A stretch of DNA of 64,000 bases from a bacterium. GTDB taxonomy: Bacteria > Bacteroidota > Ignavibacteria > Kapaibacteriales > UBA2268. Made by a program: the position numbers and the translations under genes. The stretch covers positions 1 to 64,000 of the forward strand of contig JAUIIX010000009.1 of assembly GCA_030431515.1 (NCBI GenBank), written 5' to 3'. This document shows, piece by piece, positions 7,164 to 21,959 of this stretch. Under the pieces are notes generated by a model. That model was not told the origin of the DNA, searched no databases, and saw only the letters and a program-made list of their open reading frames with translations. Each line of letters starts with the position of its first letter. Position 1 is the first letter of the stretch.

Positions 7164-8657
7164 TTAAATACTCATTTCTTTACAAAGATTGAATAATTTA
7201 TCATAATCTTTTTGAACTTTTTTATCAAAATAAAGATAATTATCAATAGCAGTGCATGAATGTAAAACAGTAGAATGATCTCTACCTCCAAATTCAGCAC
7301 CAATTGCCTTTAATGAATTTCTTGTAAATTTCTTAGCTAAATACATACTCATTTGTCTTGCTAAAGCAATTTCATGTTTTCTCGATTTTGACTCAATCAA
7401 ATCAATAGGAACTTGATAATGCTCAGAAACTAATTCTTTGATATTATGAATAGTAAATTCTTTACTTGTTAAAGAAAGTTGATTTCTTACAACTTGTTTA
7501 GCAAGGTCTAAATTTAATTCTTTCTTATCTAAAGTATGCTTTGCAATTAAATTAATTAGAATTCCTTCAAGGTCTCTAATTCTATGAGTTGCATTTTTAG
7601 CAATATACTCAGCAATTTCCATCGGAAGTTCAATTCCAGCATTTGCAGATTTTTGTTTTAAAATCGCAATTCTTAATTCAAGCTCTGGCTTTTGAATATC
7701 TACATTCAAGCCCCATTTGAATCTTGAAATCAATCTTTCATCAATACCATTTAATTCAGAAGGAGGAGTATCGCTTGATAAAACGATTTGTTTTCCTTGC
7801 TGATGTAAGGCATTAAATGTATGGAAAAAATTATCTAATGTTTTTTCTTTACCTGATAAGAATTGAATATCATCTAAAATAAGAACGTCAATACTACGGT
7901 AAAAGGCAACAAAATCATTGACTTTACTATTTTGGATGGCATTTACAAATTCTATGATAAAGTTTTCACTATGAGTATAAAGAACTCTTTTAGATGGATT
8001 GTTTTTCACAATATAATTACCAATAGCATGTAACAAGTGAGATTTTCCTAAACCTGTTTCACTATAAATAAAAATTGGATTAAATTGTGTTCCACCTGGG
8101 TTACCTGCTACAGCTTTTGCTGCTGATACTGCTAACTGATTACTTTCACCAGTTAGAAAATTGTCAAAAGAATACCTTGGATTTAAGTTGTTAGAATAAT
8201 GTTGAATTTTATTATCAGCACCTTGGAATGACAAACTCTGTTGTGCCACTGGTGGCGGAGTTTGAAATGCAGGAACTATAATTGATCTTTCTTCAACATT
8301 TTTATTATTTCTGTCAATCACAATATCATATTGCAATCTCGCACCATCACCAAACACTCTTTCAATTGTTTTGTGTAGTAAGTCATAATAATTGTTTTCT
8401 AATTGCTCATAAAAAAACTGACTTGGCACTTGAACAGTAATAACTTTGTCACTCCATTTAAGGGGGGTAATTGGAGTAAACCAAGTATTATATATCAATG
8501 ATGAAACATTATCTCTAAGTATTCTTAAACTTTTTTCCCACAATTCTTTAGTATTTGAATCTGCAGCCACTTTTTTTGTATTACTTTCGTCATACTTTGT
8601 GATTGTTGCAGCTTCTGTATTTTCGAAAAGTGAAATTGTCTCTGGATAGGTCAACAA
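7164..8657 (-). CDS. dnaA: Chromosomal replication initiator DnaA
   Basis: AAA+ initiator that binds DnaA boxes and opens the origin. Domain I lies at about residues 38-105 (LWEKSLRILRDNVSSLIYNTWF). A linker of about 50 residues follows. The AAA+ core has Walker A SETGLGKSHLL and Walker B VLILDDIQFLSGKEKT. Domain IV at about 395-497 carries the DNA-binding signature GRDHSTVLHSC. The 497-residue length is normal. The P-loop begins with Ser instead of the usual Gly. There is no ATG near the start; TTG 8657 (or 8654) with AGAGAG just upstream is used. It is not next to dnaN, and no DnaA-box cluster is seen upstream. Confidence 0.96.
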   Translation of the reverse strand: MLTYPETISLFENTEAATITKYDESNTKKVAADSNTKELWEKSLRILRDNVSSLIYNTWFTPITPLKWSDKVITVQVPSQFFYEQLENNYYDLLHKTIERVFGDGARLQYDIVIDRNNKNVEERSIIVPAFQTPPPVAQQSLSFQGADNKIQHYSNNLNPRYSFDNFLTGESNQLAVSAAKAVAGNPGGTQFNPIFIYSETGLGKSHLLHAIGNYIVKNNPSKRVLYTHSENFIIEFVNAIQNSKVNDFVAFYRSIDVLILDDIQFLSGKEKTLDNFFHTFNALHQQGKQIVLSSDTPPSELNGIDERLISRFKWGLNVDIQKPELELRIAILKQKSANAGIELPMEIAEYIAKNATHRIRDLEGILINLIAKHTLDKKELNLDLAKQVVRNQLSLTSKEFTIHNIKELVSEHYQVPIDLIESKSRKHEIALARQMSMYLAKKFTRNSLKAIGAEFGGRDHSTVLHSCTAIDNYLYFDKKVQKDYDKLFNLCKEMSI

Positions 8658-18417: not shown

Positions 18418-19446
18418 TTATTCTAATGATTCCAATAATAATAGATAACTCTCATATCTATCTGCATCAATATCACCTTCTTCTACAGCTGCCAATACTG
18501 CACATCCTGGCTCATGAGTATGACTGCAAGGCAAAAATTTACAATTATGGTGATACTCTATAAAATCATCAAAGTAAGTAGGTAACTCATATTTATCTAT
18601 ATCCCATAAAGCAAACTCTCTAATCCCAGGCGAATCAATTATCTCACCACCAAAAGGTAATTCAAACATTCTAACAAAACTTGTAGTATGCAAACCCTTA
18701 GCAGTTCGCAAACTAACAATCCCAACTTCCTGAACTTCATTATTTAATAAATGATTAATAAAAGTAGATTTTCCAGACCCAGAAGGACCTGAAATTATTG
18801 TTCGTTTATCTTTTAATATTAACTCAATAGTATCTAAGTTAATTTTTTCTTGAAGTGAAATTAAAAATAATTCTATACCTAATTCATCAGTGTAAGTATA
18901 TAAATCTTCATAAATAGTTTCTTCATCACCTAATTCAGATTTATTTATCACAATAATTGGTGTTAAATCCCCGCATTTAGCCGCAACTAAATATCTATCA
19001 ATCAATCGTCTATTATATTTAGGATTATCTGCAGCCATAAAAATCAGCATCATATCAGAATTTGCTCCAATTACATGTTCCATATTTTTATTTTGCGGTG
19101 ATATTCTTGATAATTTAGAAAATCTATTTCCAACCTCCCGAATTGTACCTTTTTGATAACCCGATGATTTAGAAAATTCATCATAAATTTCAATCTTTAC
19201 ATTATCGCCAACCGCTACAATCGAAGAGTCCGAATACTTTGATTTAATTATCCCAGCAACTTGACATTCATAAGTAACTCCATCACATTTAACTAAACTA
19301 ATTGAACCAATTGTAGCAATAAGTTTCCCTTCGATAAGATTACTCTGATCGATTTCATCTTTAAATCTAATTCGTTTGTTTCTAATTTTAAATTTTTCTT
19401 GCTTTTCTTTATTCTTGAATTGCTTTATTTTATTTTCAACAGACAA
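18418..19446 (-). CDS. rsgA: Ribosome small-subunit GTPase RsgA
   Basis: Circularly permuted GTPase that checks late maturation of the 30S subunit. The N-terminal OB fold (about 35-105) has GKLIATIGSISLVKCDGVTYEC. The G motifs are in permuted order: VINKSEL (G4), GPSGSGKST (G1), SLRTAKGLHTT (G2) and DSPGIREF (G3). The C-terminal zinc site is CKFLPCSHTHEPGC. Its length of 342 is slightly above the usual because of a Lys-rich N-terminal extension. The start is TTG 19446 with AGGA 6-7 nt upstream. It lies 26 nt downstream of the UmuD-like gene, probably the same transcript. Confidence 0.95.
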   Translation of the reverse strand: MSVENKIKQFKNKEKQEKFKIRNKRIRFKDEIDQSNLIEGKLIATIGSISLVKCDGVTYECQVAGIIKSKYSDSSIVAVGDNVKIEIYDEFSKSSGYQKGTIREVGNRFSKLSRISPQNKNMEHVIGANSDMMLIFMAADNPKYNRRLIDRYLVAAKCGDLTPIIVINKSELGDEETIYEDLYTYTDELGIELFLISLQEKINLDTIELILKDKRTIISGPSGSGKSTFINHLLNNEVQEVGIVSLRTAKGLHTTSFVRMFELPFGGEIIDSPGIREFALWDIDKYELPTYFDDFIEYHHNCKFLPCSHTHEPGCAVLAAVEEGDIDADRYESYLLLLESLE

Positions 19447-19472: not shown

Positions 19473-19892
19473 TTATATTGAATGTACAATTTTAGTTATA
19501 ACTCCTATAATTTTCCAACTTAACTCATCACCTAACTCAAGAGGTGTAAAGAAAGAATCGTGTGATTCTAAATATTGTTCACCATCTATATTTCTGTAAT
19601 ATTTTACAGTCAAATTATCATCTAATGTTGCAAGTACTAATTTCCCATCTACCAATTCTACATCTGTATCTATTATTAATATATCTCCATTAGAAATCCC
19701 AACAGGACTTAATTCATCACCAGTAATTCTGGCAAAGAATGTAGTGTTCGGATGCTCAATTAGAAATTCATTTAAGTCAATTACCGTATGAGAATCTGTA
19801 TCAATTGGAATTGGAATTCCAGCAGAAACTGATACGTCATAAAATGGTAATTTCGACGTACTACCCTTGAATGAACCAAATAATTCAATCAT
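19473..19892 (-). CDS. UmuD-like S24 protein lacking the catalytic Ser
   Basis: The track opens at 20261, but the conserved protein begins at the ATG at 19892, which has AAAGG 7 nt upstream; the earlier part overlaps the divergent glycosyltransferase. The 139 residues follow UmuD closely: cleavage-site-like SVSAGIPIPID, then IDLNEFLIEHPNTTFFARITGD, GISNGDILIIDT and LTVKYY. The Lys of the Ser-Lys dyad is present. At the nucleophile position, where UmuD has GDSM, this protein has GDEL (codons GAT GAA TTA), so the catalytic Ser is Glu. Self-cleavage is therefore unlikely. No umuC is adjacent. It may be a non-cleavable UmuD-like regulator. Confidence 0.85.
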   Translation of the reverse strand: MIELFGSFKGSTSKLPFYDVSVSAGIPIPIDTDSHTVIDLNEFLIEHPNTTFFARITGDELSPVGISNGDILIIDTDVELVDGKLVLATLDDNLTVKYYRNIDGEQYLESHDSFFTPLELGDELSWKIIGVITKIVHSI

Positions 19893-20031
19893 TTTAATAC
19901 CTTTATTTTGTTTGTCCCCCGTGAAGAATTTAAAATTAAAGCATTTTTTATTAATTTGCAAATTATAATTTATTCTTTTTATTGTTAAATTAAATGATTT
20001 GGTTAATTTAGTGTTTAATCTTTGAAAAAAA

Positions 20032-21172: not shown

Positions 21173-21427
21173 TTAATTTAAATCAATAACTATTCTTATT
21201 ATTTCATCTTTTTGCATATTATTTTGAATACAAATTTGATTTATAATTGCTGATAGTGTTCCAACTTTTAACGGCTTATGATTTGGTAATGAAATAGAAA
21301 ATTTTGAATCATTTATTGTTTTAGAGAATTTTATATGACTACCCCTCTGATGAACAAAATTATAATTCAAATATTTTAAAAGTTTGATAAAATCATTACT
21401 ATCTAAATTTCTAGGAATTTTTGTCAT
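21173..21427 (-). CDS. hicA: HicA-type mRNA interferase toxin
   Basis: An 84-residue small basic protein of the HicA/YcfA double-stranded-RNA-binding fold. Visible are KIPRNLDSNDFIKLLKYLNY, HQRGSHIKF with the catalytic His, and LPNHKPLKVGTLSAIINQ. It is expected to cleave mRNA when free of antitoxin. It overlaps the antitoxin gene by 4 nt (ATGA), antitoxin first, the order seen in many HicB-HicA pairs. The fold and catalytic His look intact. Confidence 0.85.
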   Translation of the reverse strand: MTKIPRNLDSNDFIKLLKYLNYNFVHQRGSHIKFSKTINDSKFSISLPNHKPLKVGTLSAIINQICIQNNMQKDEIIRIVIDLN

Positions 21428-21636
21428 ACAGACAATAATTCCTCTTTTACAAATTGTAATCTAATTGTTTTAGGCGAATATTCTTCATCATAAAAATGGC
21501 ATTCAACTGCATCTTTAACCATTAACTTTAGTTCTTCTAAAGTGTCACCTTGAGTAATAATTGAAAATTCGAGAGATGATGCAGAATACCCACCCTCTAA
21601 ATCTTCTTCCACAATAAATGTTATTTCTTTATCCAT
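21424..21636 (-). CDS. hicB: HicB-type antitoxin, short form
   Basis: A 70-residue partner of the HicA-like toxin. The sequence EITFIVEEDLEGGYSASSLEFSIITQGDTLEELKLMVKDAVECHF is the RNase H-like HicB core. It ends at about residue 70 and lacks the C-terminal helix-turn-helix or ribbon-helix-helix domain of full HicB, so it may neutralise the toxin without autoregulating in the usual way. Short HicB-like proteins of this type are common. Confidence 0.82.
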   Translation of the reverse strand: MDKEITFIVEEDLEGGYSASSLEFSIITQGDTLEELKLMVKDAVECHFYDEEYSPKTIRLQFVKEELLSV

Positions 21637-21698: not shown

Positions 21699-21959
21699 TT
21701 AAATTAACTCTTCAATTTTATATTCAGGAGATGGAATTGCATTTATAAGTCCTGTCATGCTCAAATCTTCATCTATATCTTCCCAATGAATCCCTAACCC
21801 TGAACCAGATATGTTAAAATTATTACGTTCAATTTCATTCGCTTTATCTAATCTTGGATACAAATAAATAGGTGTAGATACAATTCTATCATCGCTTAAA
21901 TAAATTGTAATATGACTATCGCTAATAGTAACATTTATTATTCTAAAATCATTATTCAT
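21699..21959 (-). CDS. DUF2442 protein
   Basis: An 86-residue protein with the DUF2442 pattern: VTISDSHITIYLSDDRIVSTPIYLYPRLDKANEIER and GIHWEDIDEDLSMTGLI. DUF2442 genes usually follow a DUF4160 gene in a two-gene unit suspected to be a toxin-antitoxin system. Here the upstream gene is a wreck: its last codons, ending KWRRFFNE, overlap this gene's start by 8 bp. DUF2442 is therefore an orphan partner. It lies 62 bp upstream of hicB on the same strand. Confidence 0.85.
   Translation of the reverse strand: MNNDFRIINVTISDSHITIYLSDDRIVSTPIYLYPRLDKANEIERNNFNISGSGLGIHWEDIDEDLSMTGLINAIPSPEYKIEELI

Follow-up and report, generated by a model that had tools for sequence, protein, structure and literature searches.

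A UmuD homologue without its catalytic serine and a paired paralogue with a decayed cleavage site: a possible division of UmuD into substrate and protease

The window (the whole 64,000-nucleotide stretch of DNA analysed here) encodes a UmuD-type S24 protein, P1, in which the nucleophilic serine is replaced by glutamate, and relatives of this protein are accompanied by a second S24 protein, P2, that has undergone the reciprocal loss. P1 and P2 are paralogues that occur together, P1 has kept the cleavage site and mostly lost the nucleophile, P2 has kept the catalytic dyad and mostly lost the site, and P1 is under purifying selection. From this pattern we infer a heterodimer, its cleavage, its dependence on RecA, its signal and its target. 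On balance, we favor the reading that P2 cuts P1 in trans within a UmuD-like heterodimer of the two, which acts as a switch independent of UmuC. The stricter proposal, that the pair is a natural enzyme/substrate division of UmuD, with P1 the substrate, P2 the protease and cleavage obligatorily intermolecular and UmuC-independent, is in our judgment an even bet.

P1 (139 amino acids) is encoded on the minus strand at 19473..19892, with the reading frame running from 19892 down to 19476 and the stop codon at 19475-19473. The protein matched Peptidase_S24 (PF00717) with 72 bits against the Pfam cut-off of 23.3, and the closest solved structure by sequence was that of E. coli UmuD (8gmt, E 1.8e-16). 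A Foldseek search with the AlphaFold model of P1 (mean pLDDT 76, with about 90 in the core and low confidence for arm residues 11-25) returned UmuD' (1umu) as the top solved match. The residue numbering is that of E. coli UmuD: the predicted scissile dipeptide Ala24-Gly25 (codons at 19818..19823, minus strand) lies within a V22-x-A24-G25-x-P27 motif, Lys97, the general base in active UmuD, is kept (19602..19604, minus strand), and the slot of the nucleophile Ser60 is occupied by Glu60, encoded by GAA (19713-19715, minus strand). A sequence-only reading had already reported the Ser-to-Glu replacement along with the AG site, the IDLNEFLIEHP segment and the catalytic Lys, and each of these features is present. 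Its statement that the protein follows UmuD almost throughout holds for the fold and the numbering but not for overall similarity, as identity to E. coli UmuD' is about 34% in the matched core and the NCBIfam UmuD subfamily score of 87.5 bits falls below the cut-off of 110. P1 thus possesses the S24/UmuD C-terminal fold, the Ala-Gly site at 24-25 and Lys97, and lacks the Ser60 nucleophile, a passing subfamily score and a linked UmuC. RecA-stimulated self-cleavage is expected to be absent for P1 alone.

The gene following P1 is rsgA (18418..19446, minus strand), and no umuC was found beside P1 within the 64-kb window, both as previously noted. The adjacency to rsgA holds in this genome only; since rsgA is not conserved beside P1 in relatives, a functional link between the two was rejected. 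Elsewhere in the window, two small adjacent ORFs at 21173-21636 on the minus strand are putatively HicA/HicB toxin-antitoxin-like, as judged by eye only, and are followed by a DUF2442 protein (21699-21959). A check of the rest of the genome for another umuD or umuC, as had been recommended, located an ordinary umuD with a GDSM motif adjoining umuC on contig C115.

A set of 198 related genomes was searched for P1, the host family, one of uncultured Kapabacteria-type bacteria, comprising 54 genomes, mostly fragmented assemblies. P1 was called with profile A1, for which P1 proteins scored at least 173 bits and the next class, ordinary UmuD, at most 154. Orthologues were found in 37 of the 54 family genomes, across which they share about 40-59% identity, and one more was found in a genome of the sister family (G062), for a total of 38. 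Position 60 in these proteins is Ala (10), Ser (8), Asn (8), Met (4), Glu (3), Asp (3) or Phe (2), and position 97 is Lys in 26 and Arg in 12. Ser60 is absent from 30 of the 37 family orthologues, spread over 13 genera. The seven that keep it belong to four genera (G017, G021, G022, G027, G036, G044 and G050), and some of them carry Leu or Tyr at position 61; by their sequences, these seven might still self-cleave. The sister-family P1 has an intact GESM motif and Lys, suggesting that the intact catalytic state is probably ancestral. V22, A24, G25 and P27 are invariant in all 38 proteins. Another conserved nucleophile near the site was also considered and rejected: the invariant P1 columns offer only T51, which is common in UmuD generally. 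In viral contigs, only relatives at 28-39% identity were found.

Comparison of congeneric P1 pairs gave dN/dS values of about 0.01-0.16, most below 0.07, with no internal stops, indicating that the gene is functional. The nucleophile was lost long ago and across the clade, and purifying selection acts on the gene; the loss is therefore not a recent mutation but a selected or tolerated change, in line with the initial suspicion of selection. Serine in close relatives, which would have marked this copy as a recent mutation or pseudogene, was not encountered; the two genomes of the same genus have Asp (GSDL and GEDL). The suggestion that GDEL might be the signature of a clade fails, as position 60 varies freely among orthologues.

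P2 is the sister paralogue of P1 and is encoded directly downstream of it on the same strand in 35 of the 37 family genomes, with a spacing of -4 to 149 nt when the two genes are adjacent. Its profile, A2, gave at least 160 bits in 35 family genomes, and in G044 and G031 the P2 gene is interrupted by the end of a contig or by undetermined bases; counting these, P2 was found in all 37 family genomes that bear P1. P1 is missing from the other 17 family genomes, of which G013 alone carries a P2, in broken form. A survey of 123 genomes from the order found P2 outside the host family in G062 alone. P1 and P2 are unlinked only in the window genome (G000) and in G001. In the window genome, P2 is located on contig C26 at about 8075-8491 and adjoins a gene of cluster 13; in G002, from the same genus, cluster 13 is about 3 kb upstream of an intact pair, suggesting that a rearrangement probably separated P1 from P2 and that rsgA is an incidental neighbor. 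No neighbor other than P2 that is common to the whole family was found around P1. An RNase H-like gene (cluster 1) is present near P1/P2 in eight genomes (loci L041, L050, L052, L053, L054, L055, L062 and L065), usually divergent from the pair, with a cluster 3 gene beyond it in six.

The residues lost by P1 and P2 are mirror images. Ser60, Met61 and Lys97 are kept in all 37 P2 proteins, and the cleavage region has decayed, with A24 present in 8, G25 in 13 and P27 in 5 of the 37, counts that are approximate because the alignment of the P2 arm is gapped. Ordinary UmuD proteins of the host family have Ser60 in 40 of 40 and mostly keep the Ala-Gly site, and UmuD proteins from elsewhere (n = 78) have both Ser60 and A/C24-G25 without exception. 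Parsimony reconstruction assigned no changes to the motif columns of P1 and 12 to column 60, which places the latter at the 84th percentile among P1 columns. The reverse holds for P2, with 16-19 changes in the motif columns (92nd-99th percentile) and none in columns 60, 61 and 97; in ordinary UmuD changes were few at both motif and catalytic columns. Four given columns of P1 would all be unchanged with a probability of 1e-4, but UmuD conserves those columns anyway, so the informative control is P2, which is of the same age and has lost the motif. The sequence AG near the site is kept by P2 in eight genomes of three genera (g20, g25 and that of G010), with g20 also keeping P27, and the split between P1 and P2 is therefore incomplete in places. 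Taken together, the residue tables give a site without a nucleophile in P1 and a partner with the dyad in P2, as looked for in a trans-cleaving UmuD heterodimer. A non-cleavable S24 protein of the Synechocystis LexA type would have lost both nucleophile and Ala-Gly, the latter being present in 38 of 38 P1 proteins.

In a quick tree built from 98 columns, from which the arm and catalytic columns were left out and in which the finer branching is unsure, P1 groups with P2 to the exclusion of ordinary UmuD (SH-aLRT 96), with values of 87 for P1 and 91 for P2, and G062 is at the base of both branches. The tree is most simply read as a single tandem duplication that predates the divergence of the two families and gave two intact copies, of which P1 later lost its nucleophile. 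At least four changes between Ser and non-Ser at position 60 of P1 were placed on the tree. The partial distance correlation between P1 and P2 given RecA is 0.62, a value reached in 0 of 500 permutations, and 0.70 on a reduced set; between P1 and ordinary UmuD it is -0.22. Part of the P1-P2 mirror-tree signal may come from linkage, for example through joint operon transfer.

A Y-family polymerase was not detected in seven genomes with P1 and P2, including G018 and G021 at 99% completeness, and in the set classified ordinary UmuD is absent from 11 family genomes bearing P1, including the nearly complete G018, G021 and G025. The pair is thus independent of UmuC at least in these genomes, and probably has a role apart from UmuC. 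Other S24 proteins are also present in the family. A protein of roughly 205-220 amino acids with a different N-terminal part, a serine in a GQSM/GDSM-type motif and a Lys is encoded in many family genomes (L200-L203, L208-L215 and L160:879-1520), in G041 about 1.3 kb from P1/P2. The window genome has six S24 matches, none of which is a clear LexA with a DNA-binding domain joined to S24; its sole LexA_DNA_bind match, a weak one at C54:42083, lies outside the six.

The upstream regions of P1, ordinary umuD and recA were searched for an SOS box using GGA-N5-TCC, CTAA-N5-TTAG, GAAC-N4-GTTC and unbiased palindromes, with nothing clear found. In 25 of 37 family genomes, the 150 nt preceding P1 contain a GGGGG run, mostly GGGGGA, against 3 of 173 for other ORFs (p about 3e-20); the window has a GGGGGA at 19915..19920 (minus strand) in the 5' leader of P1. 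Ordinary umuD and recA genes rarely or never have such a run upstream, with 2 of about 40 and none of 30, respectively. Its distance to the P1 start codon varies widely, and several genera carry GCATAAAG before the P1 start in addition to or in place of the run. A search of five genomes for a GGGGGGAWW regulon showed none, the sites inspected being mostly inside genes.

Cutting of the P1 arm by P2 within a heterodimer would explain the retention of the scissile motif by P1 despite a drifting nucleophile, the retention of the dyad by P2 despite a drifting motif, and the constant co-occurrence of the two. E. coli UmuD works as a dimer and its cutting in trans is established; UmuD S60A in particular is cut efficiently in trans, in a RecA-dependent manner, by UmuD 18, which has a truncated arm and an intact dyad (PMC5342242). 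In the mechanism that we propose, P1 would have kept a cleavable N-terminal arm and given up its own nucleophile, P2 would have kept the Ser60-Lys97 dyad and mostly given up its own cleavage site, and the two would associate as a UmuD-like heterodimer. A signal, probably RecA-ssDNA, would then lead the P2 dyad to cut P1 after Ala24, releasing a P1' form. Either P1 or P1' might serve as a checkpoint or polymerase-manager switch without need for UmuC. A possible target is the replicative polymerase, on which E. coli UmuD can act, as it can on the clamp (PMC5342242). Speaking against this mechanism are the Ser60 of seven family P1 proteins, the AG kept by some P2, the separation of the two genes in G000 and G001, and the upstream searches that gave no known SOS box.

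The same residues could be read differently. If the P1 arm occupied the P2 cleft without being cut, or if the P2 dyad acted elsewhere, P1 would be a pseudo-substrate or regulatory subunit. Pairs of an enzyme and a pseudoenzyme are known from other families, an arm bound in the cleft could likewise require the small residues at A-G, and the pairing and co-occurrence of P1 and P2 fit equally well. We nevertheless consider this unlikely, as cutting requires the combination seen here, a strictly kept Ala-Gly in one protein and a strictly kept Ser-Lys dyad in the other, and a stable inhibitor would be likelier to drift at the scissile bond. The sequence-only reading had instead expected P1 to stay uncleaved. 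If P1 were a UmuD that is never cleaved, with a separate role and no functional relation to P2, the nucleophile missing from 30 of 37 family orthologues would be accounted for, and E. coli UmuD does have its own role when uncleaved (PMC5342242). This explanation appears quite improbable to us, and the expectation is probably wrong: the P1 motif has remained invariant in 38 of 38 proteins though that of P2 decayed over the same time, co-occurrence with P2, which supplies a Ser-Lys dyad in all 37 P1-bearing family genomes, is perfect, and Synechocystis LexA, regarded as non-cleavable, lost Ser and Ala-Gly both (PMC3091678).

Cutting of P1 in trans by an S24 protein other than P2, whether ordinary UmuD or a repressor, is suggested by the ordinary UmuD with an intact dyad in many P1 genomes, that of the window included. 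Yet the 11 P1-bearing family genomes without ordinary UmuD in the classified set all have P2, and the partial correlation between P1 and ordinary UmuD is negative, leaving this alternative with very little probability. A recent mutation, a sequencing error or a pseudogene can be dismissed almost entirely, as the non-Ser state in 30 of 37 family orthologues from 13 genera, the dN/dS of 0.01-0.16 and the lack of internal stops all speak against it; pseudogene and sequencing error were rejected on this distribution and dN/dS.

LexA, UmuD and CI are the textbook self-cleaving proteins of the SOS response, in which one chain is both protease and substrate. P1 shares its fold, length, numbering, cleavage position and the IDLN segment after the arm with the S24 protein E. 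coli UmuD/UmuD', a subunit of DNA polymerase V. E. coli UmuD, however, unites site and dyad in a single protein and acts together with UmuC, whereas in P1/P2 these are divided between paralogues unlinked to umuC. LexA of Synechocystis PCC 6803 resembles P1 as a natural S24 protein in which the nucleophile Ser has become Asp, but its Ala-Gly is lost as well and it is regarded as non-cleavable (PMC3091678). By analogy, that protein has the look of abandoned cutting, and P1, with Ala-Gly in every orthologue, would not. The non-canonical LexA/UmuD homologues of Bacteroidetes, a related phylum, are S24 proteins with the same Ala-Gly and Ser-Lys determinants as P1/P2; in the portions of that report considered here, each repressor chain combines all determinants with a DNA-binding domain, and no split pair is described (PMC8565304). 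The engineered combination of UmuD S60A with UmuD 18 has the same split as P1/P2, a nucleophile-less arm being cut by a partner whose own arm is uncleavable (PMC5342242), but was made in the laboratory from one gene, while P1 and P2 are two natural paralogues. No description of a natural split UmuD pair was found in the open-licence literature. If our preferred reading of P2 cutting P1 is true, this natural pair would demonstrate that the autoproteolysis of SOS proteins can be separated into a dedicated switch that acts in trans. It would also offer a ready-made enzyme-substrate system for structural studies and indicate a UmuD-like function without need for a Y-family polymerase.
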